DNA from: Flavobacteriaceae bacterium
GTDB taxonomy: Bacteria > Bacteroidota > Bacteroidia > Flavobacteriales > Flavobacteriaceae
DNA: 33,495 nt
Reading direction: 5' to 3'
Assembly (NCBI GenBank): GCA_029249225.1
Contig: JAQWHT010000057.1
Span: 1-33,495 of the forward strand
In this document: positions 11,361 through 31,418 of the stretch, piece after piece
How positions within the stretch are numbered: position 1 is the stretch's first letter
Layout: every line of letters begins with the position of its first letter
Position numbers and translations under genes: made by a program
Notes under the pieces: generated by a model
The model's input: the letters and a program-made list of their open reading frames with translations, nothing else
Databases searched by the model: none
What the model was told of the DNA's origin: nothing

Positions 11361-11363
11361 AAC

Positions 11364-11391
11364 TAAATTTAACCAAAATTTCCTTACCAAA
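11364..11391 (-). promoter_or_regulatory. Promoter candidate for the multihaem cytochrome
   Basis: On the minus strand, TTTG (11391-11388) is followed after 16 nt by TAAATTTA (11371-11364), close to the Bacteroidota pattern TTTG-N17-23-TAnnTTTG. It ends 3 nt before the preferred start at 11360. One mismatch in the -7 box and a slightly short spacer keep this tentative. Confidence 0.35.
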
Positions 11392-11497
11392 GTTGAGCTT
11401 TTACTTTTGATCACTATCTTTAACATATACCAGCAAGTAAAGTTGATTTTAGTCTACATAAACTTGATAGCAAATCGCAATAAAAAATTTTTAAGTC

Positions 11498-16512: not shown

Positions 16513-16891
16513 GATTAGGGTCTAGTATGCGGGTAAAAAATGTCTGTCCTTTTTCGTCAATTATCTTCATTCTATCATTATTCAGGGGTACAAATTGAAA
16601 AATGGTTTTTTGGGGCTGTTTGTCAATGGTTACAACAAAAGTATCGGTTAGAGTTCCTTTGCGTATTTCATTTAAGCTCCACTTTCCTGTTTCAGCAAGG
16701 CTATCTAACCGGTAACTAAATTGATTTAGATAATATGTTGTTTTCCCATTTTCTTCAAATCGAATGAAAGATTGTAGTATGGGATTCTCAATTCTCCACT
16801 CTCCGATTAAGTACTCGTTAAATTGACGAGATTTTTGATTCGAGCAACCCGTTACCAGTATAATTGAAAAAAAAGTTAACAAAAAACGCAT
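16499..16891 (-). CDS. Small lipocalin-like lipoprotein
   Basis: A 130-residue lipoprotein: the signal MRFLLTFFSIILVTGC gives lipid Cys16. The mature part has GEWRIENP...FIRFEENGKTTYY...GKWSLNE, the opening pattern of small lipocalin-like eight-strand barrels common in Bacteroidota. No ligand can be predicted. Its ATG shares one base with the TAA of the FG-GAP/UnbV gene (TAATG), so its translation is likely coupled to that gene and it belongs to the same transcript. Its 3' end overlaps the convergent small exported gene by 14 nt. Confidence 0.7.
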   Translation of the reverse strand: MRFLLTFFSIILVTGCSNQKSRQFNEYLIGEWRIENPILQSFIRFEENGKTTYYLNQFSYRLDSLAETGKWSLNEIRKGTLTDTFVVTIDKQPQKTIFQFVPLNNDRMKIIDEKGQTFFTRILDPNLTTD

Positions 16892-19800
16892 TAATTGATT
16901 CTGATTTGTTGTAATGATTGGTTGTTTTTAGCGACTAACAAGTGGGTTTGATCACCCACTTTTATCGGTTTAATATTTCGTACATCTCCACGGATTACCA
17001 AACCTGTTTTTCTTGGCTCTTGAGCGCTAAAGCCATTTGATCCGTCTCCTTTTAGCCAAAGTCCGTAGCTGGCATCGTTTCTTGGGGTTTCTACTTCTGC
17101 ATTATATAGATTTCCACCGAGAACAACATCAAGATTTCCGTCTAAATCCACATCTTTCACTACCATGGCATTTATATTTGAAAATTGAGCTTGAAAGGGG
17201 AGGGGTTTAGCAGTAAACTTTCCATCATTATTTTGTAAATAAATACTTGAGAAAGAAGAAATCTCATATTTCAAAGATTCTTCTAGCATTTTATCTGAAT
17301 ATATTTCTTCAAGCGAAGCTTTTGCGAAACTATTATAATTTTTGAATTTTTCTTTTATTGCAGGCATTTGTTCAGAAGAGCATTGACGTCCTCTGACAGG
17401 ATACTCTGTATCGTCTGATTTGTAACTCAGCACAATATCATAAGTTGCGTTTTTGTCGAAATCGTTTAGATAAACTCGAAACGGTTTTTCAACTGAGGCT
17501 TGGTATTTATAGTTTAAGCCGAGATTTCCAACAATAAGATCCATATCCCCATCATTATCAAAATCTCCTTTTTCAATATCATACCACCATCCGCGATGGT
17601 CTGGGAGATAAATTTCTTCGGTAACTTCATTGAATGATTTACCCTCATTGTTTTTAAAGAAGCGAATAGACATCCATTCTCCAGCAACAACTAAATCCTC
17701 CCATGAGTCGCCATCTATATCTACCCATTTTGAAGTAGTTACCAATCCAATATTGGTGAGCATTGGATTTTTTTCTTGGGTAACATCTACAAATCGAATA
17801 TTTCCTGAAGTACTTTGATTTTCTAAAATCCTTGAATTTGAAGGATATGGATATTTTTTTGGACTAAGTCTGCCTCCTACAAAGAGATCTAAATCACCAT
17901 CATGATCAAAATCACTCACAGAGATCTCAAGTCCACTGATTCTTGTATCAGGTATTGCTGATCTATTTCTTTCAAAGACAAGGCTTCCTTTGTTTTCATA
18001 AAATCGATCTTCATAACCTTGAGAATCACTTTTAAACTCATTACCACCACTAGCTAGATAAATGTCTTGATCTCCATCATTATCAGCATCAAAAATTTGA
18101 ATTCCTAAATCTTCATAAAACTTATCTTTTTCAAAAATGGGAACGTCTACTTTTTCAAACGTTCCATTGGCTTGTTGGATATAAAGTGATGTAGCTTGTG
18201 CAATGGCACCCCCTATAACATAATCCTCTTTACCGTCATTGTTTAAGTCTCCTACAGCTAAAGCGGGTCCTAAAGTAGAGTTTTTGTGTGGTAATAACAC
18301 TTCATCTTTAAAGTCATCATATGGATTTTCTTTATGAATAAAGGCATCTTTTTGAACGACAGTTTCAAATTGTTTTGCTTTAGGCTTTACTTCTTTTTTA
18401 GTGGGAGCAGTAGATGTATTTTCATTGTAAACTACGTTGTTGTAAGTATTCATTTGATAGTCCTTGAGCTCACTTTTTCTTCCATCTGGCCATTCAATTA
18501 TAACTTCTTCAAGTTCTGTGATGGTCCCAAGTCCAAAGTGAACTCTTGGTGAGACTGATGAAAGATATCCTCTGCTAAGATTGAGTTCTTGCATTTGGTA
18601 ATTTCCTGAGGCTTTTAAGTGTATTCGAGCACCCACAGGGAGCTGATTGTCTTCTCCCTCCAGCTTAAATCCGATAAAATTTGAATTAGTATTATTATTT
18701 CTGTAAATACTAGCAAAATCTTCAAGGTTATTTACCACCAAATCCAGATCTCCATCATTGTCTAAGTCACTGTAAACAACTCCGTTTGAGAATGTTTTTT
18801 CATCGAGTCCCCATTCTAAATTTCTGTTCACAAAGCCGTCTTCTTGCTGGTTTTGGAATAAATAATTTGAAAGTTTTTCAGAGGGCATTTTTTCTAAATA
18901 TGACAATAATTTCACTTCCTCTTCTTTATTTTTATAATTAGGATCATTTTCCATTTTATCAAAAAACGCTCGGTGTTCATTATAAAAATCTTTGTTGTTC
19001 ACATCCCTTCTGATCCCATTGGTAACATATAAATCTTTCCATCCATCATTATCAAAATCAGCAAATAATCCCCCCCAACTCCAGTCTGTAGAGGAAACAC
19101 CACTCCATCGAGCAATATTACTAAAAGCTGGAGATGAATTGTTAAGATTTCCTTGGTTCAATTGCAAAGAGTTTTGCATGTACTGATGATGAAGACCAAG
19201 TGCAACAGATTGATAAAAAACTTCGGGATTCATAGATGACATATTCGCCTTAGATCTAAAATTATCTGCAGCGTTCATGTCGAGCTGAAATAGATCTACC
19301 CAGCCGTCGTTATTAAAATCGGAAGCATCTACACCCATTCCGAAAAATGAGGTTTGCTGAAGTGAATTAAGGATGTCATTTGTAAAAGTTCCGTCTCCAT
19401 TATTGAGATACATAAAATCTGGAGCATTAAAATCATTCGAGATATATACATCCGGATAGCCATCATTATTGAAGTCTGAAGCCACGACACCTAGACTCAA
19501 TCCAAAATTACTAATTCCTGATTCGTTTGTAACATCTACAAAATGATCTCCATCATTTCTGTATAGGTGATCTGAATCTCTATCCTCATGATTTTCGATC
19601 ATATATTTATAATAATCTACAGGAGCTTTAAAACTGGTAGGAGGGTAGTTTGCTACGTATAGATCTAAATCACCATCTTTATCGTAATCAAAAAAAGTTG
19701 AATGCATGCTGTATCCGTAGTCATCGATTCCATAAGCTTCAGCTTTCTCTGTAAAGGTATTGTCTTGATTATTTATGTAGAGTACATTATTATTAGGTTC

Positions 19801-20199
19801 ATTTTCTCCGCCTACAGCGATATAGATATCTAGAAAGCCATCTTTGTTGATGTCGATAAGACTTACACCCGAATACCATCTATCGTCTCCTTCAATTCCC
19901 GCTTCGTCACTTATGTCCTTAAATTTAAAATCTCCTTGATTTATGTAAAGTTTATTTGGCACCATATTTCCGGTAAAGAACAAATCTTCCAGACCATCGT
20001 TGTTAAAATCTCCTGCTGCAACTCCACCCCCTAAATACATATAGGGATAGGTAAAATAATTTCTTGTGTTGGTTTCATAAAGCTTGTTTACAAAATCAAT
20101 ATTGGTATTGTTAGAATTTAATTTTGAAAATTGTTTTACTTCAGTTTCACACGCAAAAGTGATAAACACCAAAATGAATAACCCAATTATCTGTTTCAT
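16891..20199 (-). CDS. FG-GAP/VCBS repeat lipoprotein with ASPIC/UnbV domain (CRTAC1-like)
   Basis: A 1102-residue surface or periplasmic lipoprotein (signal MKQIIGLFILVFITFAC, lipid Cys17). I count 14 acidic FG-GAP/VCBS-type repeats; 12 are of the DxNNDG or DxDxDG form (such as GDFNNDGLEDLFF and FDYDKDGDLDLYV) and two have decayed (DIDGDSWED, DFDKNATYD). These loops bind calcium and build beta-propeller blades. Between two repeat groups lies an ASPIC/UnbV domain (VGARIHLKASGNYQMQE, then VHFGLGTITELEEVIIEWPDG). Homologues are frequently encoded beside SusC/SusD and are sometimes mislabelled RNA-binding proteins. Here it is downstream of susD but separated from it by a perfect terminator. A role in ligand capture or adhesion is inference. 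Confidence 0.88.
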   Translation of the reverse strand: MKQIIGLFILVFITFACETEVKQFSKLNSNNTNIDFVNKLYETNTRNYFTYPYMYLGGGVAAGDFNNDGLEDLFFTGNMVPNKLYINQGDFKFKDISDEAGIEGDDRWYSGVSLIDINKDGFLDIYIAVGGENEPNNNVLYINNQDNTFTEKAEAYGIDDYGYSMHSTFFDYDKDGDLDLYVANYPPTSFKAPVDYYKYMIENHEDRDSDHLYRNDGDHFVDVTNESGISNFGLSLGVVASDFNNDGYPDVYISNDFNAPDFMYLNNGDGTFTNDILNSLQQTSFFGMGVDASDFNNDGWVDLFQLDMNAADNFRSKANMSSMNPEVFYQSVALGLHHQYMQNSLQLNQGNLNNSSPAFSNIARWSGVSSTDWSWGGLFADFDNDGWKDLYVTNGIRRDVNNKDFYNEHRAFFDKMENDPNYKNKEEEVKLLSYLEKMPSEKLSNYLFQNQQEDGFVNRNLEWGLDEKTFSNGVVYSDLDNDGDLDLVVNNLEDFASIYRNNNTNSNFIGFKLEGEDNQLPVGARIHLKASGNYQMQELNLSRGYLSSVSPRVHFGLGTITELEEVIIEWPDGRKSELKDYQMNTYNNVVYNENTSTAPTKKEVKPKAKQFETVVQKDAFIHKENPYDDFKDEVLLPHKNSTLGPALAVGDLNNDGKEDYVIGGAIAQATSLYIQQANGTFEKVDVPIFEKDKFYEDLGIQIFDADNDGDQDIYLASGGNEFKSDSQGYEDRFYENKGSLVFERNRSAIPDTRISGLEISVSDFDHDGDLDLFVGGRLSPKKYPYPSNSRILENQSTSGNIRFVDVTQEKNPMLTNIGLVTTSKWVDIDGDSWEDLVVAGEWMSIRFFKNNEGKSFNEVTEEIYLPDHRGWWYDIEKGDFDNDGDMDLIVGNLGLNYKYQASVEKPFRVYLNDFDKNATYDIVLSYKSDDTEYPVRGRQCSSEQMPAIKEKFKNYNSFAKASLEEIYSDKMLEESLKYEISSFSSIYLQNNDGKFTAKPLPFQAQFSNINAMVVKDVDLDGNLDVVLGGNLYNAEVETPRNDASYGLWLKGDGSNGFSAQEPRKTGLVIRGDVRNIKPIKVGDQTHLLVAKNNQSLQQIRIN

Positions 20200-20221
20200 A
20201 AATACAAATTTTATTAAAAAT

Positions 20222-20253
20222 AAAAAAACCCCGCAAATTTGCGGGGTTTTTTT
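20222..20253. terminator. Perfect palindromic rho-independent terminator between susD and the FG-GAP gene
   Basis: Seven A, the palindrome CCCCGCAAATTTGCGGGG, then seven T: a 32-nt perfect inverted repeat. It has a GC-rich stem and a U-tract in either direction. On the minus strand it lies 21 nt after the susD stop and 22 nt before the FG-GAP start, so it should end most susCD transcripts; leakage or a separate start would supply the downstream lipoproteins. Confidence 0.9.
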
Positions 20254-20274
20254 AAAAGTAAAAGACTCCTACAA

Positions 20275-22158
20275 TTAGTAACCCGGATTTTGGATTAAAG
20301 AGGGGTCACGATCAATTTCATTTTGTGGAATAGGCATGAAGTATACATGATCTCTCCATATTCTATTTTCAAAAACGATATCAGTCGGTCTGTACGTATA
20401 TTCAAAGTCAGCAGTACTCTTTCTATAGTTTGCTGGAGTCATTGAGCTACCTGCTTTTTGAGTCGCTTGTATCAATGTTTGTTGCACTTGCTTATCAAGA
20501 GAATAAGGACCTTCTAGCCAACGTTTCATCGCAAATAATCGATCATCTTCGTTAACTAATTCTTTATCGCGTTCTCTTTTATACAGCTCAACTAATGCAG
20601 CTCCAGATTCAGTAACTGCTGGTAATCCATTTCTATAACGAAGTTTATTTAACCAAGCTTTTGCATCACTTTCTTGTCCTAAATTAATACTAGCTTCAAC
20701 ATAATTTAAAAGTACTTCAGTATATCTTAAATAAGGCGCATCAACTTTCTGAAGGTTGTTTGGCCACGAAGCTGGCATATAAGGATCAGCAAACTTTTTA
20801 AAGTAGTACCCAGTTCTCGAACCGTTCCAGTCTTCAATGGGTCCTTGACGAGTATCGACACCGTTTACAATAGTTCCATCAGAGAATGTGTAGTATCCTG
20901 TTTGAAGTTCATTAAAGTTGTCAAACTTCGTTACATCACTGGTTCTTACTTTCCAGGGTGCACCATCAAACAACAGAGTAGAGTAAAAACGTGCTTCACG
21001 ATTTGAATAGGGATCCGCAGCATGATCTGGGTTGTTCCAATCAAATTCGGTACCGTCTGCTAAACTATACTTTGAAGCTAAGGCTTCCGTTGGAGTAGTA
21101 CCAGCCCACTCGTGATAACCATTAGGTCCGTGATAGAGGGCTACCATACCTGGTCCTTGCGACCAATCATCACCCCCTGGATAGGTTCTAGAACCGTATC
21201 CAAATCCTTCGATCATTCGTCCCCAGATAAAGTCTTGATTTTTGTCTCCTTGTAGCCAGATGTCTTCGTAATTCTGTTTAGCTTCCTCAAATGAAACAGG
21301 TGCAGCATAATCTAACTTGTACCCTGATGTAGCATCTAAAAGCGCTTTAGAAGCAGCTTTTGCGGCTTGCCAGCGTTGCTCTTGAGAACCTCCAGTATAT
21401 CCTATCAGTTCTTTATTACCAAAGGAAGATAATGTTGATACTCCACCTGACTTAGAAGGCTCATATAAATCACTCGCAGCATGAGTCAAAACTCTTGATT
21501 TTAGAGCATGAGCTGTTAACTTATGTGCTCTAGCTTTACTCGCTGGTGCATCTGCCAATAAGGAGATGGCCTGATCTAAATCAGACACTATTTGGTTTAC
21601 AGTTGCTTCAAAACTTGATCTTGGATTTTCAGCTTCACTGTCTAAGGTAAGAGGTTCAGTCAAAAGAACTATACCTCCATACTGTCTCATTAGCTGGCTG
21701 AAGAAATAGCCACGCATAAAATAGGCTTCTCCTAAAAGTCTTTTAGTTAAAGATGCATTTAATCCTCCCTCGTTTTCAGTCAACTTTTGGATTGCTATAT
21801 TGGCACTTCGCACGTAAGGATATAGTTGAGTCCAGCTCATCCATTGCATATCCATATATCCTCCTGAGGGATTCATTTTCCCTTCAGTATAGCCGTCAAC
21901 TCCTCGACCAGGATGCGTAAATACTGCTTGGTCTGTAAACGCATCTGTTGTTTCCTCCCGAGTAAGTGTTCCGGCCCAGGTCCCTTGGTATAAGTCAAGT
22001 ACTGCTGCCTCTGCTAGTTTGGTTGATGACCAAACATTAGACTCGGCAATTTCACTCAATGGCGTTGTGCTTAAAAAATCATCTTGGCAACTTATAAGTG
22101 CCGCAACAAACATAAATCCAACAGCAAATTTTGAAATAGTCTTCTTCATTTTTCTCAT
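20275..22158 (-). CDS. SusD/RagB-family nutrient-binding outer-membrane lipoprotein
   Basis: A SusD-type lipoprotein that caps its SusC partner and binds ligand at the cell surface. The lipoprotein signal ends ALISC (Cys24), followed by the family-typical QDDFLSTTPLSEI. Helical TPR-like segments (LLGEAYFMRGYFFSQLMRQYGGIVLLTEPLT), a PYLRYTEVLLNYVEA block and the C-terminal ending PIPQNEIDRDPSLIQNPGY are standard RagB/SusD features. The 627-residue length is somewhat above average, suggesting large surface loops. ATG 22149 (MKKTISK) is an alternative start. It starts 10 bp after susC. The ligand cannot be predicted by eye. Confidence 0.94.
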   Translation of the reverse strand: MRKMKKTISKFAVGFMFVAALISCQDDFLSTTPLSEIAESNVWSSTKLAEAAVLDLYQGTWAGTLTREETTDAFTDQAVFTHPGRGVDGYTEGKMNPSGGYMDMQWMSWTQLYPYVRSANIAIQKLTENEGGLNASLTKRLLGEAYFMRGYFFSQLMRQYGGIVLLTEPLTLDSEAENPRSSFEATVNQIVSDLDQAISLLADAPASKARAHKLTAHALKSRVLTHAASDLYEPSKSGGVSTLSSFGNKELIGYTGGSQEQRWQAAKAASKALLDATSGYKLDYAAPVSFEEAKQNYEDIWLQGDKNQDFIWGRMIEGFGYGSRTYPGGDDWSQGPGMVALYHGPNGYHEWAGTTPTEALASKYSLADGTEFDWNNPDHAADPYSNREARFYSTLLFDGAPWKVRTSDVTKFDNFNELQTGYYTFSDGTIVNGVDTRQGPIEDWNGSRTGYYFKKFADPYMPASWPNNLQKVDAPYLRYTEVLLNYVEASINLGQESDAKAWLNKLRYRNGLPAVTESGAALVELYKRERDKELVNEDDRLFAMKRWLEGPYSLDKQVQQTLIQATQKAGSSMTPANYRKSTADFEYTYRPTDIVFENRIWRDHVYFMPIPQNEIDRDPSLIQNPGY

Positions 22159-22168
22159 GTTTATATAA

Positions 22169-25100
22169 TTAAAAAGTAATTTGTATTCCGGTTATTATTG
22201 TTTTTAGTAGTGGGTAAGCACCTCCATTATTAACAGATCCTCCCCCAGCTGCTCTAGTGTTGTTAATATTAACTCCACTTTGGATAACTTCAGGATCAAA
22301 TGGGAAATCCGTTATCGTTATTAAGTTAGTTCCAGTAACTGAAAGCCTTATGCTATCAGCATTAATTCGGCTTGTAATAGAGTCACTAAAATTATATCCT
22401 AACTCTAAAGTTTTTAGTCTTAAAAAATCACGTGTGATTAAAGCATAATCAGTTTGTCCCGAATACCACTGGTCACCTCTGTCAGCTAGACGTGGAGCAG
22501 GAGCGTTTGGATTATCTAAAGACCATGCACGATCAAATACATCACGTTGGACATTTGCAAGCGTACCTGACATAAAACTCCATTCGTAAGAGTTATATCC
22601 TCCTGCTGCACCATTCCAGTACATATTAAAGTCAAAATTCTTGAAGGACATCGCAGTGTTAAAACCAAACTGAGTGTCTGCAAAAGTGCTCCCTCCAACT
22701 CGTGTTCTGTCAGCAGGTGTAATTTTACCATCTCCGTTAATATCAACTACTTTAGCATCACCAGGCTTAAGAAGAGGAGCAATAGCGCTGTAATCTAAGC
22801 TTTCAGAGTCAATATCTGATTGAGAACGAAAAACACCATCAAATTCGTATCGAAGTGGTCTTCCAAGTTCCCCTCCAGTTTCTCTTTGCCAAGGTCTGTC
22901 AGCTAAATCCGGTTCATCCACAAATAGTAATTTATTATTTGAGTCACTCACATTAAAAGTAAAATTATAAGTCAAACCTGAGTTTGTTTCACCATTAAAT
23001 CCTGCAGTTACCTCTAGACCCTTATTTTCAAATTCACCAATATTCTGGGCTGGAGGAGTAATACCACTGTATGATGGTAGCGTTTTGTTGGGTAATGTTA
23101 AAATATCTTTTCTCAAATTACTAAAATACTCAAAACCAAAAGATAATCTGTTATTTAAAGTTTTTAAATCAATTCCAATATTTGATGAGGTTTGCGTCTC
23201 CCAAGTAACGTTAGGATTGGGAACCTTTGTCTCAAACGCAGTTGTGACAACATCACCTAAACTTGTTGCAGAAAATCCATAAGAAGCAAGGAACTGGAAT
23301 GCAGCAACATTATCATTACCTAATTGTCCCCAAGAACCTCTAAGCTTCGCATAATCTAAAAAGCTAACAGAATCAAAAAAACTTTCTTCAGATAATACCC
23401 AACCTACTGAAGCTCCAGGAAAGACCCCATAACGTGTAGCTTCAGGGAATAAGTATGAGCCATCATAAGTAACAACAGCTTCTAAAAGATATTTTTCTTT
23501 ATAGTTATAGTTCAAACGACCATAGTAATGAATACGAGCAATTTGATTTCCAGTACCCTGACTGAACTGTCCGTCTTGGCCACCAAAGCTCAACTGATCT
23601 AAATCATTTGAAAGAAAGAAACGTTTAAAAGCTCTCATAAAGCTTAATTCAGATTGCTCTCTCGTAATCCCTCCTAAAATTTTGAAATAATTGTCACCAA
23701 AATCTTTTTCATATGATGCATTAAATATTGCAGTAATGTCTGTCCTTGTAGTATGATCCTGTCTTAAACTTGGATCTCCAGGACCACGATCTGCAGCAGT
23801 TAAACCCGATGAATCTTTATTTATACCATCCCAAGTATATAATTGCCAAGGACGTTGCCATAATTTTTGGCTAAAATTCATTTTATCATAGGAAACAATT
23901 CCCTTAATCAAAAGTCCCTCGACACCTGGCACATCAAAATTGATTCCGATATTACTTTGGACAAAATTCGTGCTTCGGTTGTTGTAACCTGGTTCATCTG
24001 TTACTCGAATTGCTGGGTTGTTACCATTTTCAATATCAGGACCGTACTCTCCAGTAGGCCAGTAGGCAGGGAACCAAGGGTATTGACGTACTAAATCGTT
24101 AAATACGTTTGAGGGTGCATTAGTCGAAGTTAAATTTTCTTCTTGTCTTGAGTATAATCCAACATCAACACTTAGAAAGTCATTGATTTTAGCATCAAGG
24201 TTTAAACGAAGATCATATTGGGTAAATCCCTTGGGTGAATTTTTGAAATTCACGTCCTGTCGTAAGTATCCAGCAGAGGCTAAATAATTTACATTTTCAT
24301 CTCCGCCAGTGATTTGAACGTTCTGTCTTGTTGTGGGTGCATTTCTTCTTTGCACTTCTTCCATCCAATCTGTATCTGGGTAATTCCAAAGATCTGTTCC
24401 TGCAGCTGTATTTTGAATACGATCTGTAGAATATGTTGGGTTTAAAATCTCTCCATTTGGTCGAGTAAAAGGCAACCCTCTAACTGAGTTTGCTGCTTGC
24501 CATTCACCTACAGGTAATTTGTAAACATTTAGTACGTTTACTAAGTCCATATATTCAGCGCCAGTTAACATATCTGGTGTTGTTGTAAAATTTTGCCAAC
24601 CATAGTTTGAGGTAATTTTTACTTTAGCGTTGCCTTCTTTCCCTCTTTTTGTTGTGATTAGTATAACACCATTTGCAGCACGAGCTCCATAGATTGCTGC
24701 AGAAGCATCTTTCAGTACAGAAATACTTTCTATGTCAGCTGGATTTATTCTGGCAAGGCCACCTGCTCGATCAGGTATCCCATCTATTACTATAAGTGCT
24801 GATGAATTGTTAAAAGTATTAGTACCTCTAACTCGTATTGCAGGATTATCTGCTCCAGGAGCGCCATTACCGGTATCAATAAAAAGACCAGCAACTTTCC
24901 CTGCTAAAGCAGTACCTAAGTTGGGTGAGGATGATTTTTCTAGCGCTTCGCCACCAATTGCGGCTACAGAACCTGTAAGAGTTGCTTTTCTTTGCGTACC
25001 ATAACCAGTAACAACAATTTCATCAAGCTCGTTAGCACTCTCAGATAAAGCCACGTCAAAAGAGTCGGCACCTGCTGATAGTTCTTGAGTTTCAAAACCG

Positions 25101-25324
25101 ATGTAAGAAAACACAATAGTTGCATCACTACTGGAAACAATTAGTGAGTAATTCCCGTCAAAATCCGTTACTGTACCATTTGAGGTACCTTTCTCCACGA
25201 CAGTTACTCCAGGAAGTGGCTCTGATCCGTCAGTGACATTTCCTGAGGCAGTAATTTGTGCATAAGCAAAATTACCAATTATCATAGATAATAGTAAATA
25301 AAATAATTTCAATTTTTGTTTCAT
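22169..25324 (-). CDS. SusC/RagA-family TonB-dependent outer-membrane transporter
   Basis: A 1051-residue TonB-dependent transporter. It has a signal peptide (1-22, ending AYAQ), then an N-terminal carboxypeptidase-regulatory-like domain (about 24-96; SGNVTDGSEPLPGVTVVEKG, then FSYIGFETQE). A TonB-box region DEIVVTGYG (101-109) follows, then a plug domain with RVRGTNTFNNSSALIVIDGIP, DIESISVLKDASAAIYGARA and NGVILITTKRG. The 22-strand barrel ends in aromatic Phe. This is the full SusC layout, with no signalling (STN) domain, so it is not an anti-sigma-coupled type. It is divergent from the LytTR regulator (225 bp) and followed by susD after 10 bp. Confidence 0.95.
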   Translation of the reverse strand: MKQKLKLFYLLLSMIIGNFAYAQITASGNVTDGSEPLPGVTVVEKGTSNGTVTDFDGNYSLIVSSSDATIVFSYIGFETQELSAGADSFDVALSESANELDEIVVTGYGTQRKATLTGSVAAIGGEALEKSSSPNLGTALAGKVAGLFIDTGNGAPGADNPAIRVRGTNTFNNSSALIVIDGIPDRAGGLARINPADIESISVLKDASAAIYGARAANGVILITTKRGKEGNAKVKITSNYGWQNFTTTPDMLTGAEYMDLVNVLNVYKLPVGEWQAANSVRGLPFTRPNGEILNPTYSTDRIQNTAAGTDLWNYPDTDWMEEVQRRNAPTTRQNVQITGGDENVNYLASAGYLRQDVNFKNSPKGFTQYDLRLNLDAKINDFLSVDVGLYSRQEENLTSTNAPSNVFNDLVRQYPWFPAYWPTGEYGPDIENGNNPAIRVTDEPGYNNRSTNFVQSNIGINFDVPGVEGLLIKGIVSYDKMNFSQKLWQRPWQLYTWDGINKDSSGLTAADRGPGDPSLRQDHTTRTDITAIFNASYEKDFGDNYFKILGGITREQSELSFMRAFKRFFLSNDLDQLSFGGQDGQFSQGTGNQIARIHYYGRLNYNYKEKYLLEAVVTYDGSYLFPEATRYGVFPGASVGWVLSEESFFDSVSFLDYAKLRGSWGQLGNDNVAAFQFLASYGFSATSLGDVVTTAFETKVPNPNVTWETQTSSNIGIDLKTLNNRLSFGFEYFSNLRKDILTLPNKTLPSYSGITPPAQNIGEFENKGLEVTAGFNGETNSGLTYNFTFNVSDSNNKLLFVDEPDLADRPWQRETGGELGRPLRYEFDGVFRSQSDIDSESLDYSAIAPLLKPGDAKVVDINGDGKITPADRTRVGGSTFADTQFGFNTAMSFKNFDFNMYWNGAAGGYNSYEWSFMSGTLANVQRDVFDRAWSLDNPNAPAPRLADRGDQWYSGQTDYALITRDFLRLKTLELGYNFSDSITSRINADSIRLSVTGTNLITITDFPFDPEVIQSGVNINNTRAAGGGSVNNGGAYPLLKTIITGIQITF

Positions 25325-25549
25325 TTGTTTAATATTTGGTTATAAAGTATTTTTCAGAAACAATAAAACTCATCAAACACTACTTTCAATTTAAATTCCA
25401 TTTTGGTTTTATTATTTTCTTATTACATAAATATATAAATCATTTAACATTTTATTTTGAAAAAATAGATAAAAGAGTTATTTAGGATACAAAATAATTT
25501 TTTCTGTATACAAAAATATTATACATTTAAAAATTAATATCATTTTTTC
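25325..25549. promoter_or_regulatory. Divergent intergenic region between susC and the LytTR regulator
   Basis: This 225-bp, strongly AT-rich gap must hold the promoters for susC (minus) and the regulator gene (plus). No full TAnnTTTG box is visible in either direction. A partial susC candidate is TTTG followed by TACTTTAT on the minus strand. An inverted repeat GTATA-N9-TATAC lies at 25506-25524, 26 nt before the regulator start. LytTR proteins bind pairs of short direct repeats, but none could be identified with confidence by eye. Confidence 0.4.
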
Positions 25550-27094
25550 ATGAAGTTTTATCAAATCCTTATTGTATTTACATTTTGCCTGCAAATTAAT
25601 ATTTATTCCCAAGAAAAAAATAATATTAATAATAATATTGAATATTTTACCTTTTTATTTCAACTTAAAGATTCTGTAAGCACTCTCCCCTATCAGTTAA
25701 AATTACCAGGGGTTTTTAAAAATTTTTCTTCTTCTTTTGAAACGGGTTTATTTTCCTTTGAGAAAACATTTTACCTGACAAATAATACTTTCGATTATAC
25801 TCTAGTCATCGAAGGTGGATTTCATGATCAAGGTATGATTCTTTTAAACGATCAGTTTTTAAATAACACTATACACAGGAGTAAAAATAGAATTGAAGTC
25901 AAGCTTCCAGCCGAATTTCTTATCAAGGGGATCAATAAAATCTCATTTCTTATAGTAAGTCATTCTGAGTATGGCACCTTTGAGAATGATATTTATCTTG
26001 TTAATGATCATGATAAAGTTTTTTTAAATGGCATTTGGGATGTTATTTCATTTCAAAAAAATAAAAATAATTTTGTTAGAAAACCAACCCAAGGTTTTGA
26101 TTTGCTACAATTTGTTGATTTAAAAACAGAAAAATACTCTTCAATTAGTTACAATGATGAAAATTGGCCTAAAACTAACTTTCCAGTTTCTATCGAAAAA
26201 TTGTTTGATGATATGGAGTTAGATGGTGTTTTTTGCTTTAGAAAAAAAATTGTACTTGATCAAATCCCTAAAGAAAATTACACCTTGACTATTCCGAAAG
26301 GAATAGATGATTTTGATCAGTTTTATGTTAATGGAAAATTAGTAGCTACAACGGATTGTTTTTATTGTGAAAGGAAATATGTTATTCCCAAAGAATATTT
26401 GAGTATTGAAAATAATTTTACATTCTTTTTGATTGATAAACACGGTCCAGGAGGGGTGGCTGATAAAGTATCATTATACAATACTTTAGATTCAGTTGAT
26501 ATCTCAGGCGAGTGGTCCTATAAGAAATTGATGGAAATGCAAATGCTCGTCACTGTCAAAAATGTAGATAATTCAAAATCGTTTTTCAAAAAATCTAACT
26601 TTAGTTTTTTAAATCTCGATGGAGATGAATTGATTTTTGAAAATTTATTAATTGAAGATGTGGATGGTAGTAATTATTTGATTTTTATAATATCCTTATT
26701 TTTGTTATTATTGGTCTTGCTTTATCTTTTTTTGAGGAATAGAACAACAAAAAAACCAATTCAAAAAGAAGAATTAAAAGATGAGATTAAGCATTTATTT
26801 ATTCGCTCCGACAGAGCAGATCATAAGGTCTTGTTCAGTGAAATTCTTCTAATAGAAGGGAAAAAAGATTATGTCAAGGTGAGTCTATTAAATAAATCCT
26901 ATCTAGTTAGGAAAAATTTAAAAACATTTTTAAGTGAATTGCCTGAATCAAAATTTGTTAGAATAAGTAAGTCAGTCGCTTTGAATACAGAACAGATAGA
27001 AAAAATAGATAAAAACATGCTATTTGTGAAATCAGGAAACTATTATATAATCGGAAAAAAATATAATCAAGCAATTAAGGAATTATTAAAATAA
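25550..27094 (+). CDS. Membrane-tethered LytTR transcription regulator with periplasmic jelly-roll sensor domains
   Basis: The signal sequence (1-20, ending NIYSQ) is followed by about 350 periplasmic residues with two galactose-binding-like beta-sandwich regions. The first is about 45-160 (FSFEKTFYLTN...GMILLNDQFL). The second is about 190-310 (GVFCFRKKIVLD, IDDFDQFYVNGKLVAT, RKYVIPKEYLSI), like the jelly-roll parts of sialate O-acetylesterases and GH2 enzymes, but without any catalytic domain. One transmembrane helix follows at 376-395 (YLIFIISLFLLLLVLLYLFL) with a basic RNRTTKK on the cytoplasmic side. A C-terminal LytTR DNA-binding domain spans about 424-514 (LIEGKKDYVKVSL, KFVRISKSVALN). 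No receiver or kinase domain is present. It is divergent from susC and upstream of the oxidoreductase set, so it probably controls one or both. Confidence 0.85.
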   Translation: MKFYQILIVFTFCLQINIYSQEKNNINNNIEYFTFLFQLKDSVSTLPYQLKLPGVFKNFSSSFETGLFSFEKTFYLTNNTFDYTLVIEGGFHDQGMILLNDQFLNNTIHRSKNRIEVKLPAEFLIKGINKISFLIVSHSEYGTFENDIYLVNDHDKVFLNGIWDVISFQKNKNNFVRKPTQGFDLLQFVDLKTEKYSSISYNDENWPKTNFPVSIEKLFDDMELDGVFCFRKKIVLDQIPKENYTLTIPKGIDDFDQFYVNGKLVATTDCFYCERKYVIPKEYLSIENNFTFFLIDKHGPGGVADKVSLYNTLDSVDISGEWSYKKLMEMQMLVTVKNVDNSKSFFKKSNFSFLNLDGDELIFENLLIEDVDGSNYLIFIISLFLLLLVLLYLFLRNRTTKKPIQKEELKDEIKHLFIRSDRADHKVLFSEILLIEGKKDYVKVSLLNKSYLVRKNLKTFLSELPESKFVRISKSVALNTEQIEKIDKNMLFVKSGNYYIIGKKYNQAIKELLK

Positions 27095-27207
27095 TTTAGT
27101 TTAACATTAATTTTATATATAAAAAATTATGTATTCTAGACATTTGGCTACATTAAAGTATTTTAAACACTAAATAATAAGTTATTAATTATTAATTTAA
27201 AATTGTG

Positions 27208-27236
27208 AATTTTTAATTTAAATTAAATTTAAAAAG
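27208..27236. repeat. AT-only imperfect palindrome upstream of the SUMF1-like gene
   Basis: The last 30 nt before the TTG start form an imperfect inverted repeat of TTTTTAATTTAAATT-type sequence around a central AATTTAAATT. In a 144-bp AT-rich gap this may be an operator, an AT-rich promoter upstream element or chance. No consensus promoter was found between the regulator and this gene, so read-through from the regulator is possible. Confidence 0.25.
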
Positions 27237-27238
27237 TC

Positions 27239-28216
27239 TTGAATAGAAATGTATTAAATCACAATTTGCTTTATTTGTTTTTAATAAGCTCATTAGTTGT
27301 TTCCCAAGAGAAGTATATTGAGACAATATCTGGCATTCAATATGATCTTCACATGGAATTTATACCACAAGGCGATTTTATGATGGGTAGTCCTAAATTT
27401 GAGCAAGGTCATTTTGGTGATGAGGGTCCTCAGCATAAGGTAACTGTTGACGGGTTTTGGATGAGTCGTTACGAAATTACTTGGGATTTATATAATCTTT
27501 TTGTGAGTAGAGAACTGGATGCGAACCAAAAGACGAAAACAAATGAATCTGAAGTACAGGTTAATGTGGATGCTGTTTCTGGAGCTACCACCCCTTACGT
27601 GGAAATGAGTTTTGGAATGGGGGTTGATAATTATCCAGCTATCTGTATGACTCAACTCGCTGCGGTAAAATTTTGTGAGTGGTTATCGGCAATGACAGGT
27701 CATTTTTATCGATTACCTACAGAGGCTGTATGGGAATATGCTTGTAGAGCAGGAACAGAAACTGCTTACAGTTTTGGAGATGATTTTAGTCAGCTTGCTG
27801 AGTATGCTTGGTTTTCAGAAAATAGTCAGGATAAATATCAACAAGTAGGGACTAAAAAAGCTAATCCATGGGGATTATTTGATATGCACGGAAACGTAGC
27901 TGAATGGACCTTAGATCAATACGTTCCTTCAGTTTACAGTAAAAGAGAAGATGGAGAAAGTAATCCGTTAGTAGAAGGAGGAAAAGTTTACCCCAAAGTA
28001 GTGCGAGGGGGTTCCTGGATGGATAATCCAAACCGATTGCGGTCTGCAGCAAGAAGACCTTCTTCGAAAAAATGGAAGAAGCGAGATCCACAAATACCGA
28101 AGAGTAAGTGGTGGCATACTGATGCTCCTTTTGTGGGGTTTCGGATAGTTCGCCCTTTGATAACACCTTCTGAAGAGGATCAAAAAAAATATTGGAAATA
28201 CGAATTAACAGATTAA
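27239..28216 (+). CDS. Exported SUMF1/FGE-fold protein lacking the formylglycine-enzyme cysteines
   Basis: A 325-residue protein of the sulfatase-modifying-factor fold (PF03781). Motifs include FIPQGDFMMGSP (41-52), HKVTVDGFWMSRYEITW, VKFCEWLS, FYRLPTEAVWEYACRAG (157-172), WGLFDMHGNVAEWT (211-224), VVRGGSW (254-260) and the terminal VGFRIVRP. True formylglycine-generating enzymes carry two cysteines just after RGGS; here that stretch reads WMDNPNRLRSAARR, without cysteine, so sulfatase activation is unlikely. It may be a binding protein or a different oxidase. The start is TTG 27239, chosen because it alone includes the signal peptide (NHNLLYLFLISSLVVSQ) and an in-frame stop lies just upstream. 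The oxidoreductase gene follows after 10 bp. Confidence 0.8.
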   Translation: MNRNVLNHNLLYLFLISSLVVSQEKYIETISGIQYDLHMEFIPQGDFMMGSPKFEQGHFGDEGPQHKVTVDGFWMSRYEITWDLYNLFVSRELDANQKTKTNESEVQVNVDAVSGATTPYVEMSFGMGVDNYPAICMTQLAAVKFCEWLSAMTGHFYRLPTEAVWEYACRAGTETAYSFGDDFSQLAEYAWFSENSQDKYQQVGTKKANPWGLFDMHGNVAEWTLDQYVPSVYSKREDGESNPLVEGGKVYPKVVRGGSWMDNPNRLRSAARRPSSKKWKKRDPQIPKSKWWHTDAPFVGFRIVRPLITPSEEDQKKYWKYELTD

Positions 28217-28226
28217 ACTAACGAAC

Positions 28227-29558
28227 ATGAACAACAAAAACAAAAATCAGAACAATGAATCACGACGTGTATTTGTCCAAAAAACTGCTATGGCAGCGGG
28301 TGCCCTTCTAACGGTGCCTATGGGAGTTGAGGGAATGGCTCGTGTAAACGGAAACCAAAAATTAAAATTGGCCTTGGTAGGTTGCGGAGGTAGGGGGTCT
28401 GGAGCGGCAGTGCAAGCACTTACAGCTGATGAAAATGTAGAGCTTGTCGCTATGGCTGATGCATTTGGAGATCGTATTGAAAGAAGTTTAAAAGGAATCC
28501 AAGAACATTTTGACGGAGAGAAGAAAATCAGTGTCAAAGAAAAAAATCGCTTTGTTGGTTTTGATGCCTACAAAAAAGCAATTGATCTGGCAGATGTTGT
28601 TATTTTGACTACACCTCCTGGATTTAGACCTTATCATTTTGAATATGCAATTGCTAACGACAAGCATGTGTTTATGGAAAAACCTGTTGCGACAGATCCA
28701 GTAGGAATCCGTAAAGTTCTAGCGACAGCAAAACTTGCTAAAGAAAAAAAACTAAATGTAGTTGTTGGCTTACAACGGCACTACCAATCAAAATACATCG
28801 ATTTAAAACAACGTATTGACGCAGGAGCAATTGGAAAAATTAGAAGTGGTCAAGTGTATTGGAATGATGCTGGAGTTTGGGTAAAGAAACGTAAACCAGG
28901 TCAAACAGAATTAGAATACCAAATGCGTAATTGGTACTATTTCAACTGGCTTTGTGGAGATCATATTCTTGAACAACATATTCATAATATAGATGTGGCT
29001 AACTGGTTTATAGGAGACTATCCAGTCTCTGCTCAAGGAATGGGGGGACGCCAAGTGCGTAACGGAAAAGATCATGGAGAAATTTTTGATCACCATTTTG
29101 TAGAATTTACTTATGCTAGTGGTGCGGTAGTCGCGAGTCAATGTCGACACATTCCTGGAACAATGAGCAGGGTAGATGAAGTTTTTCAAGGAACCCAAGG
29201 AAGTGTTGAAATTGGAAAAGGGATTATTAGTGGTTTAGATGGGGAAAGCAGCTATAAGTATCCAAATAAATGGGGTGAGGATCCGAATCCTTACCAAGTA
29301 GAACACGATCGGTTATTTGCATCCATCCGAAATGGAGGTGTGATTGCAGATGCTGAAAACGGAGCTAAAAGTACTTTAACTGCAATTTTAGGTCGAATGG
29401 CAACATATACAGGTAAGAAGATCACCTTTGAAGAGGCACTCAATTCTAAACTACATTTAATGCCAGAGGAAGTCACTTGGGATACAACCCCTCCCACCCT
29501 CCCAGATTCCGAAGGCCAGTATCCGATTCCTACACCTGGAAAAACAAAAATGGTTTAA
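28227..29558 (+). CDS. Tat-exported Gfo/Idh/MocA-family oxidoreductase
   Basis: A NAD(P)-type sugar oxidoreductase of 443 residues. The N-terminus has a twin-arginine signal, SRRVFVQK (12-19) followed by a hydrophobic AMAAGALLTVPMGV, so it is exported folded with its cofactor already bound. The Rossmann domain opens with KLALVGCGGRGSGAA, and the family EKP motif is in MEKPVATDP. The C-terminal substrate domain has YYFNWLCGDHILEQHIHNIDVANWF and is typical of Bacteroidota secreted members. Tat-exported Gfo/Idh/MocA proteins have been linked to oxidation of sugar hydroxyls in the periplasm; the substrate here is unknown. The next gene starts 2 nt after the stop. Confidence 0.9.
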   Translation: MNNKNKNQNNESRRVFVQKTAMAAGALLTVPMGVEGMARVNGNQKLKLALVGCGGRGSGAAVQALTADENVELVAMADAFGDRIERSLKGIQEHFDGEKKISVKEKNRFVGFDAYKKAIDLADVVILTTPPGFRPYHFEYAIANDKHVFMEKPVATDPVGIRKVLATAKLAKEKKLNVVVGLQRHYQSKYIDLKQRIDAGAIGKIRSGQVYWNDAGVWVKKRKPGQTELEYQMRNWYYFNWLCGDHILEQHIHNIDVANWFIGDYPVSAQGMGGRQVRNGKDHGEIFDHHFVEFTYASGAVVASQCRHIPGTMSRVDEVFQGTQGSVEIGKGIISGLDGESSYKYPNKWGEDPNPYQVEHDRLFASIRNGGVIADAENGAKSTLTAILGRMATYTGKKITFEEALNSKLHLMPEEVTWDTTPPTLPDSEGQYPIPTPGKTKMV

Positions 29559-29559
29559 G

Positions 29560-30474
29560 ATGAAACGTAGAAACTTTACACAATTAGCTGGAATGAGTGG
29601 ACTTGGTTTGTTCTCAGCTCCTTCAGTTTTCGTAACTGAGATCAGCCAAAACAAGCACTCTTTTAATTTGGCTTATGCCCCCCATTTGGGGATGTTTCGA
29701 CATCATGCAGGGAATGACCCTATTGATCAGCTCAATTTTATGGCAGATCAAGGATTTACTGCTTTTGAGGACAATGGGATGCGAACCCGTGAGGTCGCAT
29801 TACAAGAGAAAATGGCTCAGACTATGGCCAACCGAGGTTTGCGTATGGGAGTTTTTGTGGCACACGAAATCTACTGGAAAAAGCCAAACCTTGCCAGCGG
29901 TGATCTAGCCTTAAGAGAAGAGTTTTTAGACTACATTAAGAAAGCAATTCCTGTGGCTAAACGAGTCAATGCAAAGTGGATGACTGTTGTGCCAGGACAT
30001 GTGGATCTGAGACAGAATATGGCTTATCAAACAGCTCATGTAGTGGAAAGTTTAAAACAGGCCGCTGCTTTGCTGGAGCCTCATGGGATTGTTATGGTAT
30101 TGGAGCCATTAAATTTTAGAGATCATCCAGGCTTATTTTTAGCAGAAAGTCCTCAGGCGTATGAGGTTTGTAAGGCGGTTGATTCACCCTCTTGTAAAAT
30201 CCTTTTTGATATTTACCACCAACAAATTCAAGAAGGAAATTTGATCCCAAACATTGAAAAATGTTGGGATGAAATTGGATATTTTCAAATTGGAGATAAT
30301 CCAGGTCGAAAGGAACCTACCACGGGGGAGATCAACTATACTAATGTGTTTAAATATATACACTCTCGTGGTTTCGACGGTATTTTAGGAATGGAACACG
30401 GCAACAGTCGCAAAGATAAAGTAGGTGAACAAGCTGTTATAAATGCGTATATCAGTGTAGATCAATTCCTCTAA
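29560..30474 (+). CDS. Tat-exported hydroxypyruvate-isomerase-like TIM-barrel protein
   Basis: A 304-residue member of the xylose-isomerase-like TIM-barrel superfamily, closest by eye to hydroxypyruvate isomerase (NLAYAPHLGMF...QGFTAFEDNGM). The N-terminus MKRRNFTQLAG (Arg3-Arg4) plus a short hydrophobic stretch is a Tat-type signal. Likely metal and catalytic residues are Glu182 (VLEPLN), Asp217 and His220 (FDIYHQQ), Gln243 (YFQIGDNPGR) and Glu279 (GMEHG), all present. Classical hydroxypyruvate isomerase is cytosolic, so export implies another keto/aldo sugar-like substrate, presumably the product of the upstream oxidoreductase. Its stop overlaps the next start by one base (TAATG). Confidence 0.85.
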   Translation: MKRRNFTQLAGMSGLGLFSAPSVFVTEISQNKHSFNLAYAPHLGMFRHHAGNDPIDQLNFMADQGFTAFEDNGMRTREVALQEKMAQTMANRGLRMGVFVAHEIYWKKPNLASGDLALREEFLDYIKKAIPVAKRVNAKWMTVVPGHVDLRQNMAYQTAHVVESLKQAAALLEPHGIVMVLEPLNFRDHPGLFLAESPQAYEVCKAVDSPSCKILFDIYHQQIQEGNLIPNIEKCWDEIGYFQIGDNPGRKEPTTGEINYTNVFKYIHSRGFDGILGMEHGNSRKDKVGEQAVINAYISVDQFL

Positions 30475-31418
30475 TGGCCAATTCCATAGCCCAGTTGTTT
30501 GGGATTCGCTATCCAATCATTCAAGCCGGCATGGTATGGGCGAGTGGATGGCGCTTGGCTTCGGCCGTCAGTAATGCTGGAGGATTAGGACTTTTGGGAG
30601 CAGGTTCTATGTACCCAGAAATACTTCGTGAACACATACAAAAATGTAAAAAAGCAACGGACAAACCCTTTGGAGTCAACATACCCTTGCTCTATCCTGA
30701 TATAGATAAGTTGATGGAGATCATTGTGGAGGAAAAAGTAACGATTGTATTTACAGCTGCAGGAAATCCAAAACTATGGACGGAGTTTTTAAAAACGAAT
30801 GGGTGTATTGTAGTTCATGTTATAAGTTCTGTCAAATTTGCGTTAAAAGCTCAAGTATGTGGAGTGGATGCCATTGTTGCTGAAGGATTTGAAGCTGGAG
30901 GTCATAACGGGAGAGAAGAAACTACTACGATGACATTAATCCCTTTGGTCAAAAAAGCCATAAACCTCCCTTTGATTGCTGCAGGTGGAATTGGCTCGGG
31001 TCAAGCCATGCTCGCCGCAATGGCATTGGGTGCTGATGGGGTGCAGGTGGGTTCGCGTTTTGTTGCCACTCCTGAAGCGTCTTCCCATCCTGATTTTAAA
31101 TCCGAAGTGCTGAAAGCAGAGCAAGGAAGCACTGAGTTGACCTTAAAAGAATTGACTCCAGTACGATTACTCAAAAATCCTTTTTATGACCAAATCAAAA
31201 AACTTTACAATGAGGGAGCCAGTTCGGAAAAATTAAAAGAAGTGCTAGGAAGGGGACGTGCCAAAAAAGGAATGTTTGAAGGAGACCTAGTTGAAGGAGA
31301 ACTTGAGATTGGGCAAGTAGCCGCTCAAATAGATACCCTGCTTCCTGCTGAATCTATTGTCAACGAATTTATTACAACTTACAATGCCACACTCAAAAGA
31401 CTAACTCCTCTCGGTTAG
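30474..31418 (+). CDS. Nitronate monooxygenase-like FMN protein (2-nitropropane dioxygenase family)
   Basis: A 314-residue FMN-binding TIM barrel of the nitronate monooxygenase / FabK family. The N-terminus (IRYPIIQAGMVWASGWRLASAVSNAGGLGLLG) is the usual first FMN segment. FEAGGHNG contains His144, the residue used as catalytic base in true nitronate monooxygenases. AAGGIGSGQAMLAAMALGADGVQVGSRFVAT (169-199) binds the FMN phosphate. No signal peptide is present, so it is cytosolic, unlike the two upstream enzymes. The start overlaps the upstream stop (TAATG), which points to translational coupling. It could oxidise nitronates as detoxification or act as an enoyl reductase; the sequence favours the former only mildly. 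Confidence 0.85.
   Translation: MANSIAQLFGIRYPIIQAGMVWASGWRLASAVSNAGGLGLLGAGSMYPEILREHIQKCKKATDKPFGVNIPLLYPDIDKLMEIIVEEKVTIVFTAAGNPKLWTEFLKTNGCIVVHVISSVKFALKAQVCGVDAIVAEGFEAGGHNGREETTTMTLIPLVKKAINLPLIAAGGIGSGQAMLAAMALGADGVQVGSRFVATPEASSHPDFKSEVLKAEQGSTELTLKELTPVRLLKNPFYDQIKKLYNEGASSEKLKEVLGRGRAKKGMFEGDLVEGELEIGQVAAQIDTLLPAESIVNEFITTYNATLKRLTPLG

Follow-up and report, generated by a model that had tools for sequence, protein, structure and literature searches.

A probable membrane-anchored LytTR regulator with duplicated esterase-type jelly rolls beside a SusCD locus in a Flavobacteriaceae bacterium

How might a LytTR protein that carries its own membrane helix, and whose gene stands back to back with susC, take part in the control of that nutrient-uptake locus? 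SusR-type regulators are among the proteins that switch Bacteroidota nutrient loci. The main switches of such loci, as described in the relevant part of PMC10766802, are hybrid two-component and ECF/anti-sigma systems. The stretch of DNA analysed here (the window, 33,495 nucleotides of a Flavobacteriaceae contig) holds a divergent susC gene next to an open reading frame for which the original prediction had proposed a fused signal peptide, two jelly-roll regions, a single helix at residues 376-395 and a LytTR domain at 424-514, with neither kinase nor receiver. A topology like that of ToxR/CadC built from different parts, and a role as nutrient sensor for susCD, had also been proposed.

The open reading frame encodes 514 residues with no internal stops (Table 1). 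Its C-terminal part matches LytTR (PF04397) at residues 425-513 with an E-value of 3.7e-16 and 59.6 bits against a curated Pfam cut-off of 22.6, and is by this measure a member of the family. No kinase or receiver was matched by Pfam at E up to 1, the sole further match at this level being FtsL_2 over the transmembrane region (E 0.08, below its cut-off), and an NCBIfam search of the protein returned no informative name. On hydropathy a single strong hydrophobic segment is observed at residues 377-395 (Kyte-Doolittle 3.26); the signal-peptide-like segment of the window copy scores under the 1.6 cut-off, and is presumably cleaved. The 15 residues on the N-side of the helix are acidic (4 D/E, 0 K/R) and those on the C-side basic (6 K/R, 2 D/E). 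Furthermore, the 15 residues after the last hydrophobic segment contain 4-6 K/R in seven of the eight copies, the window's own included, and 2 K/R in the copy at L063. This charge bias, together with the signal peptide, points to a periplasmic sensor part and a cytoplasmic LytTR domain. DNA-binding domain and transmembrane helix are thus found in one chain with the sensor probably outside, as in transmembrane transcription regulators.

Table 1. Positions of the features of the window
Feature	Position	Strand	Basis
FG-GAP/ASPIC-UnbV protein, after susD on the same strand	16891..20199	-	Pfam
susD	20275..22158	-	Pfam
susC, divergent from the sensor, proposed main target	22169..25324	-	Pfam
TCTATTTTTTC, promoter-like block at a near-constant distance beyond the operator toward susC	25459..25469	-	weak, AT-rich, by eye
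Predicted operator, direct repeat TTTGTATAC-N12-TTTGTATCC, 21-bp period	25485..25514	-	sequence comparison
Sensor/regulator gene, 514 aa: signal peptide, two CE20-type jelly rolls, one transmembrane helix, LytTR	25550..27094	+	
Signal-peptide-like N terminus, residues 1-21, ending ...YSQ	25550..25612	+	sequence; model helix 2-23
Jelly roll 1, residues 47-168	25688..26053	+	profile matches to jelly roll 2 and PDB esterases
Jelly roll 2, residues 184-332, CE20 ancillary-domain type	26099..26545	+	profile and structure matches
Transmembrane helix, residues 377-395	26678..26734	+	hydropathy and model
LytTR DNA-binding domain, residues 412-514	26783..27091	+	Pfam, profile and structure matches
Formylglycine-generating-enzyme-like (FGE-like, PF03781), conserved neighbour on the other side	27239..28216	+	Pfam
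Gfo/Idh/MocA oxidoreductase, xylose-isomerase-like TIM barrel and nitronate-monooxygenase-like genes, conserved	28227..31418	+	Pfam

A single-sequence AlphaFold2 model of the protein was discarded (mean pLDDT 36.6). The model built on an eight-row alignment (mean pLDDT 67.8, pTM 0.43, with unreliable relative domain placement) shows strands within residues 48-168 and 208-329, followed by a helix (373-399) and an alpha/beta domain (415-513), a low-confidence linker at 399-412 joining helix and LytTR. Residues 412-514 of the model superpose on the LytTR structure 3d6w (Z 15.2, rmsd 2.3 over 103 residues) and on AgrA 4xqj (Z 12.8, rmsd 2.0 over 95 residues). Pfam, hydropathy and AlphaFold2 hence bear out the proposed layout: the domain search gives LytTR with kinase and receiver absent, and the structure prediction gives two beta-sandwiches N-terminal to the helix and a LytTR fold. 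The same architecture was found in 8 of the 38 genomes of the window's genus, its own included. Since it is kept in seven further genomes (the copies of G322 and G327 being N-terminally cut by a contig edge), chance is excluded and the one-piece LytTR architecture is confirmed as real.

The origin of the periplasmic part was then traced through profiles and structures. The family profile over the second sandwich matches solved SASA-type esterases (9ega, E 6.9e-16; 9h4u, 9.2e-13; 7kmm, 1.7e-10) and, more weakly, lectins and glycosidase sugar-binding domains, and the first-sandwich profile on its own matches 9h4u (E 2.6e-12) and 9ega (E 6.1e-9). In the model, residues 181-331 superpose on 9h4u (Z 19.4, rmsd 2.2, 148 residues) and residues 184-332 on 9ega (Z 19.1, rmsd 2.2, 145 residues). 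Moreover, jelly rolls 1 and 2 match each other in a profile-profile comparison (probability 98.7, E 3.4e-16, 100 columns, 25% identity). By these matches both sandwiches look like a tandem duplication of the CE20/SASA ancillary jelly roll (X448; 9ega, 9h4u), which jelly roll 2 resembles in sequence and fold and jelly roll 1 in sequence; the two jelly-roll regions first described are in this way sharpened to one duplicated domain. Unlike the CE20/SASA esterases, the sensor has the jelly roll in duplicate, fused to a transmembrane helix and LytTR, and no SASA/SGNH catalytic domain (PF03629) was matched in it by Pfam, whereas two esterase relatives (L102 and L064:3228-5330) do score a SASA match.

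By homology and fold the jelly rolls are candidate carbohydrate binders. In CE20 enzymes the ancillary domain is packed against the catalytic one and contributes to the active-site or substrate cleft (PMC12313940), and the passages of that source which describe it do not state stand-alone sugar binding by the ancillary domain. Such packing would suit a sensor whose jelly rolls bind no sugar and dock on a periplasmic protein, for example a CE20-type esterase or a part of SusCD, reporting its state, and the periplasmic part does diverge fast, jelly roll 1 of the relatives being 24-43% identical to the window's. We nevertheless hold this reading to be doubtful, as all eight copies retain the GIDDxDxxYxN...RxY core of jelly roll 2 and the sensor has no conserved esterase neighbour, the one in G299 being the only case among the stretches read. 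A CxxC in a loop of jelly roll 2 (C270/C273, window 26357-26368) is invariant in the eight sensors and is a possible disulfide. It recurs in one of 30 non-sensor esterase-type domains (a set that leaves out L040, the G299 sensor itself), namely the esterase-length L091 of G303, and this weakens its candidacy as a sensor-specific redox switch. In the G299 sensor (L064:13202-14929) the N terminus ahead of jelly roll 1 includes LFTSC, which by eye resembles a lipobox, and this protein may be lipid-anchored besides being membrane-spanning.

Beyond the eight copies, a ninth genome of the genus (G318) holds a 62-codon C-terminal sensor fragment at a contig edge, and among the seven genus genomes that are at least 90% complete the sensor is found only in the window's own. 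No full-length relative apart from the own genome was found in an order sample of 296 genomes by single-protein search, nor any in a family sample of 397 (cut-off 1e-30) or in class and phylum samples of 395 each (cut-off 1e-25 each), the best 3-5 candidates per genome being scored throughout; the samples overlap, and the results hold among the matches listed. Among the weaker matches outside the genus three loci were read, the others being judged by matched part and frame length; L004 and L005 were rejected as sensors, being receiver-LytTR proteins, and L032 is an esterase. On these searches the architecture is likely absent outside the genus. A single-protein search of genome contigs yielded no related locus. 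A family-alignment profile search of the same contigs yielded seven loci, five of them sensors matching five of the copies in our genomes and two of them esterases, and viral contigs gave no match with any of three family alignments. The window's bacterium is probably marine, and isolate names suggest the same of five of the copies, which belong to metagenome assemblies. Its genome has two LytTR proteins in all, the second being of 235 residues with an apparent receiver preceding LytTR (by eye).

As to the neighbourhood, Pfam confirmed the divergent genes of the window as susC and susD. Among the nine genomes with a sensor or sensor fragment, susC is the next gene in five (four whole, one cut at the contig end), the sensor stands directly after susD in one (G299), and a contig edge lies on the susC side in the remaining three (G322, G327, G318). 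The survey of homologues thus places the sensor beside susCD in six of six loci with a readable susC side. It is divergent from susC in the window, G330, G316 and G297 (the contig of the last holding only the first 174 susC codons) and immediately precedes a co-oriented susC in G303, where (L063:1-2777 compared with window 22169-28216) the sensor is reversed relative to both neighbours, 35-37% identical to the window's. On its other side it is adjoined by the FGE-like gene in eight of nine genomes (G318 by eye), the exception being G299. Besides susC, susD and the sensor, the latter locus has genes for a GH36 melibiase, a SASA esterase, a GH109-type protein and a GHMP kinase, a content which suggests a galactose- or GalNAc-containing glycan as target. 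With 11 sulfatase matches in the window's genome, a role of the FGE-like neighbour in the use of sulfated glycans is conceivable. The susC, susD and FG-GAP/UnbV genes are of two very different types in the window (16891-25324) and G330 (L058:11849-20000), 35-47% identical, and the FGE-side flanks of the same two genomes are 81-89% identical; the transporter module appears to have been exchanged between similar flanks.

The gap between sensor and susC (25325-25549) contains a predicted operator of two 9-bp direct repeats 12 bp apart, which agrees with the canonical LytTR site of 9-bp direct repeats 10-13 bp apart given in PMC11347149. The window has one occurrence of the core pattern YGTATA-N15-TGTRT, whereas shuffled sequences average 0.06 (at least one in 6 of 100 shuffles), and the longer operator pattern is matched exactly, at the sole window site found with up to 2 mismatches. 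Across the whole genome (2.09 Mb) three sites match the 28-base pattern at up to 2 mismatches, among which the one in the sensor/susC gap is the only exact one. Over the 38 genus genomes, up to 2 mismatches gave 204 sites versus 195 for a reversed control (summed); loose matches therefore carry no meaning, and as genome-wide evidence they were dropped. Among the sites listed, exact ones are found only beside the sensors of G000 (the window's genome) and G297, and the nine with 1 mismatch include two beside sensors (G316, G330) and seven elsewhere, four of these in sensor-less genomes. Hence only exact sites, or placement upstream of susC, carry weight.

Such placement was scored in the 260 bp that precede susC. 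There the best matches of G000, G316, G330, G303, G297 and G299 have 0, 1, 1, 2, 0 and 2 mismatches respectively, and are equalled by 0, 0, 0, 0, 0 and 1 of 200 first-order randomised sequences. Each of the 11 readable sensor-less loci has 3-5 mismatches in this region, the best being G296 with 3, and 22 to 179 of 200 randomised sequences do as well. Site presence in 6 of 6 sensor-bearing against 0 of 11 sensor-less loci corresponds to 1/12376 in Fisher's exact test (by hand, with no kinship correction), in a tally that leaves out the three contig-edge sensor genomes and with a consensus read from the same sites later counted, in which the sensor-less loci took no part. The distance from operator start to susC start is 190, 166, 159, 135, 150 and 70 bp in G000, G316, G330, G297, G303 and G299. 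Operator-like repeats are also seen elsewhere around some sensors: G303 has one in each gap flanking the sensor, and in G316 a second site (L059:10291-10318, 2 mismatches) overlaps the annotated sensor start. The sensors of G316 and G327, both flanked by such extra repeats, are the two most similar non-window sensors. In the window, the gap on the far side of the sensor (27095-27238) has no operator-like site at up to 3 mismatches.

Nineteen genomes with a susC match allow a comparison of loci with and without the sensor. Four have the sensor next door; in eight (G298, G311, G331, G306, G328, G326, G319 and G307) susC and the FGE-like gene diverge from one another as immediate neighbours, the sensor being absent; three (G296, G308 and G320) have neither within the examined stretch; and four cut or partial rows (G317, G318, G322 and G310) were left out. 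G297 and G299 were added to the sensor-bearing loci from beyond this set. The sensor is dispensable, because 11 of the 15 readable susC loci do without it. On a susC tree of these 15 rows sensor presence needs three changes, all three forced by well-supported branches, and 130 of 500 shuffled labellings are as low. An earlier tree, with six changes and four forced, was replaced on account of doubtful rows (G317, scored sensor-less; G318 and G322, scored sensor-bearing). The carriers form three lineages on the 15-row tree (G000 with G316, G303, and G330); G297 groups with G330 (susC 88% identical) and G299 is a fourth, distant lineage. Operator and sensor thus co-occur in some four lineages, which between them have two susC types about 45% identical, and the remaining lineages lack both. 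Since three changes are forced and the site follows the sensor on both types, their co-presence would seem, from these sequences, to be more than susC descent, the independent contrasts being few.

Taken as a whole, the comparisons make it probable that the protein is a membrane-anchored one-component transcription regulator of the adjacent SusCD nutrient-uptake locus. The proposal of a nutrient sensor for susCD stands as far as the conserved linkage and the predicted operator reach, and the ligand can be put forward only as a candidate. The two periplasmic CE20-type jelly rolls would sense a ligand, the likeliest being an oligosaccharide that the locus releases or imports, or such a sugar complexed with a partner. 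This would alter the pairing of the jelly-roll and transmembrane part, the signal crossing through one helix, and a LytTR pair held at the membrane would occupy the two repeats, recruit polymerase and switch on susC; the sensor probably also switches on its own gene. In published accounts, CoxC binds its operator from membrane fractions and releases it on CO exposure (PMC11347149), and an AgrA dimer binds two direct repeats (PMC4227749).

CoxC, the MHYT-LytTR protein of Afipia carboxidovorans, resembles the window protein in joining a membrane sensor and a C-terminal LytTR in one chain, in having a direct-repeat operator at the target promoter and in being encoded alongside its targets. It senses CO through a 7-TM MHYT and uses three 8-bp repeats (PMC11347149), whereas the window protein has a signal peptide, two jelly rolls, one transmembrane helix and two 9-bp repeats; MHYT was absent from it in Pfam at E up to 1 and it has one strong transmembrane segment, which sets it apart from CoxC-like MHYT-LytTR proteins. 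Could it, as CoxC does, repress? A membrane-anchored repressor whose LytTR pair is freed from DNA by ligand, derepressing susC, is conceivable but unlikely in our judgement. The CoxC operator overlaps the -35 box and the second repeat could overlap an upstream promoter element here, but most LytTR-type regulators are described in PMC11347149 as binding upstream of -35 and activating.

A rather more improbable alternative to control of susC is that LytTR regulates its own gene alone, perhaps with the neighbouring FGE-like operon, and that the site is near susC by geography. In divergent loci the operator could indeed serve the sensor's own promoter alone: the window site is 63 bp from the sensor start versus 190 bp from that of susC, 11 susC loci manage without the sensor, and degenerate sites lie in the sensor-FGE gap of G316 (L059:11900-11927, 3 mismatches) and G327 (L062:1461-1488, 2 mismatches). 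Such a reading fits poorly with G303, where a site lies between the sensor stop and a co-directional susC, and with G299, where the site is upstream of susC although the sensor follows susD. A TATTTTT run, moreover, begins 16-17 nt past the second repeat toward susC in five of six loci and 19 in G303, a weak sign read by eye in AT-rich sequence. Release of LytTR from the membrane by regulated proteolysis, for which the low-confidence linker 399-412 would offer a place, is the least probable course, as the scanned conserved neighbours include no protease and CoxC binds DNA while membrane-embedded (PMC11347149).

The window protein can be set beside other known systems. With ToxR/CadC and other transmembrane transcription regulators it would share a sensor outside and a DNA-binding domain inside, in one protein (PMC10269533). 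ToxR/CadC have an N-terminal winged HTH (PMC5936718), whereas here the sensor is N-terminal, the DNA-binding domain is a C-terminal LytTR and no winged HTH was matched by Pfam. The comparison with ToxR/CadC first drawn for this protein is hence right about the different parts, but the topology is not new: transmembrane transcription regulators are widespread, LytTR examples with transmembrane helices being described in Caulobacter (PMC10269533) and in Bacteroides LRS-like operons (PMC6193735). In an LRS the LytTR regulator is soluble and its membrane inhibitor is a different protein of the same operon; here the transmembrane helix is in the regulator and the next gene is FGE-like. With the hybrid two-component and ECF sigma/anti-sigma systems of Bacteroidota loci (PMC10766802) the protein would have in common a membrane-spanning sensing tied to susCD, but it has no kinase, receiver, sigma or anti-sigma match in Pfam, and thus no histidine kinase and receiver in one chain. 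A Reg_prop/Y_Y_Y/LytTR protein of another Bacteroidia genome (G725, L156:2796-5450) has a comparable order, with an N-terminal hydrophobic segment, a beta-rich sensor, a second such segment at about 733-757 and LytTR, with no kinase or receiver match; its sensor differs, being a propeller with Y_Y_Y, and no SusCD match was found in the two other open reading frames scanned in that stretch.

Membrane-bound LytTR regulators are therefore already known, and it is the esterase-type sensor on LytTR and its link to SusCD that appear undescribed. In the literature outside subscription papers no SusCD regulator of the esterase-jelly-roll/TM/LytTR kind was found described, and in the parts of PMC7440613, PMC11278836 and PMC10197871 that concern it LytTR is mentioned only in passing. 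We lean towards the view that this is a further route of SusCD control in Bacteroidota, in which a single membrane-anchored LytTR protein with a duplicated esterase jelly roll as sensor is gained or lost jointly with its operator while the genes on either side stay in place, and is paired with SusCD modules of very different type. If true, SusCD would here be controlled more simply, with no kinase and through a short operator at an exact position; an enzyme accessory domain would have become a receptor, and a single genus would offer a natural with/without comparison.

The sensor evolves fast relative to its surroundings. In six genomes with the same FGE-side neighbours it is 44.5-65.7% identical, the FGE, MocA, TIM-barrel and PLP-decarboxylase genes being 75.4-97.5% identical, and between window and G316 the values are 47.3% for the sensor and 92.5% for susC. 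LytTR shares in this (58% between window and G316; 58-73% to the window's in the five closest), and the operator is nearly unchanged while the sensor drifts, LytTR included. Such divergence would not be expected of a sensor matched to a single conserved transporter, and speaks against the proposed role. Positive selection as its cause is unsupported, dN/dS being below 1 wherever dS could be estimated, with sensor dN above that of most neighbours. In the pair G330/G297 sensor dS is 0.95 versus 0.26-0.55 for the neighbours, which would fit allele replacement. Elsewhere in the window, and unrelated to the sensor, a multihaem-cytochrome-like open reading frame at 10188-11426 has several c-type cytochrome Pfam matches.
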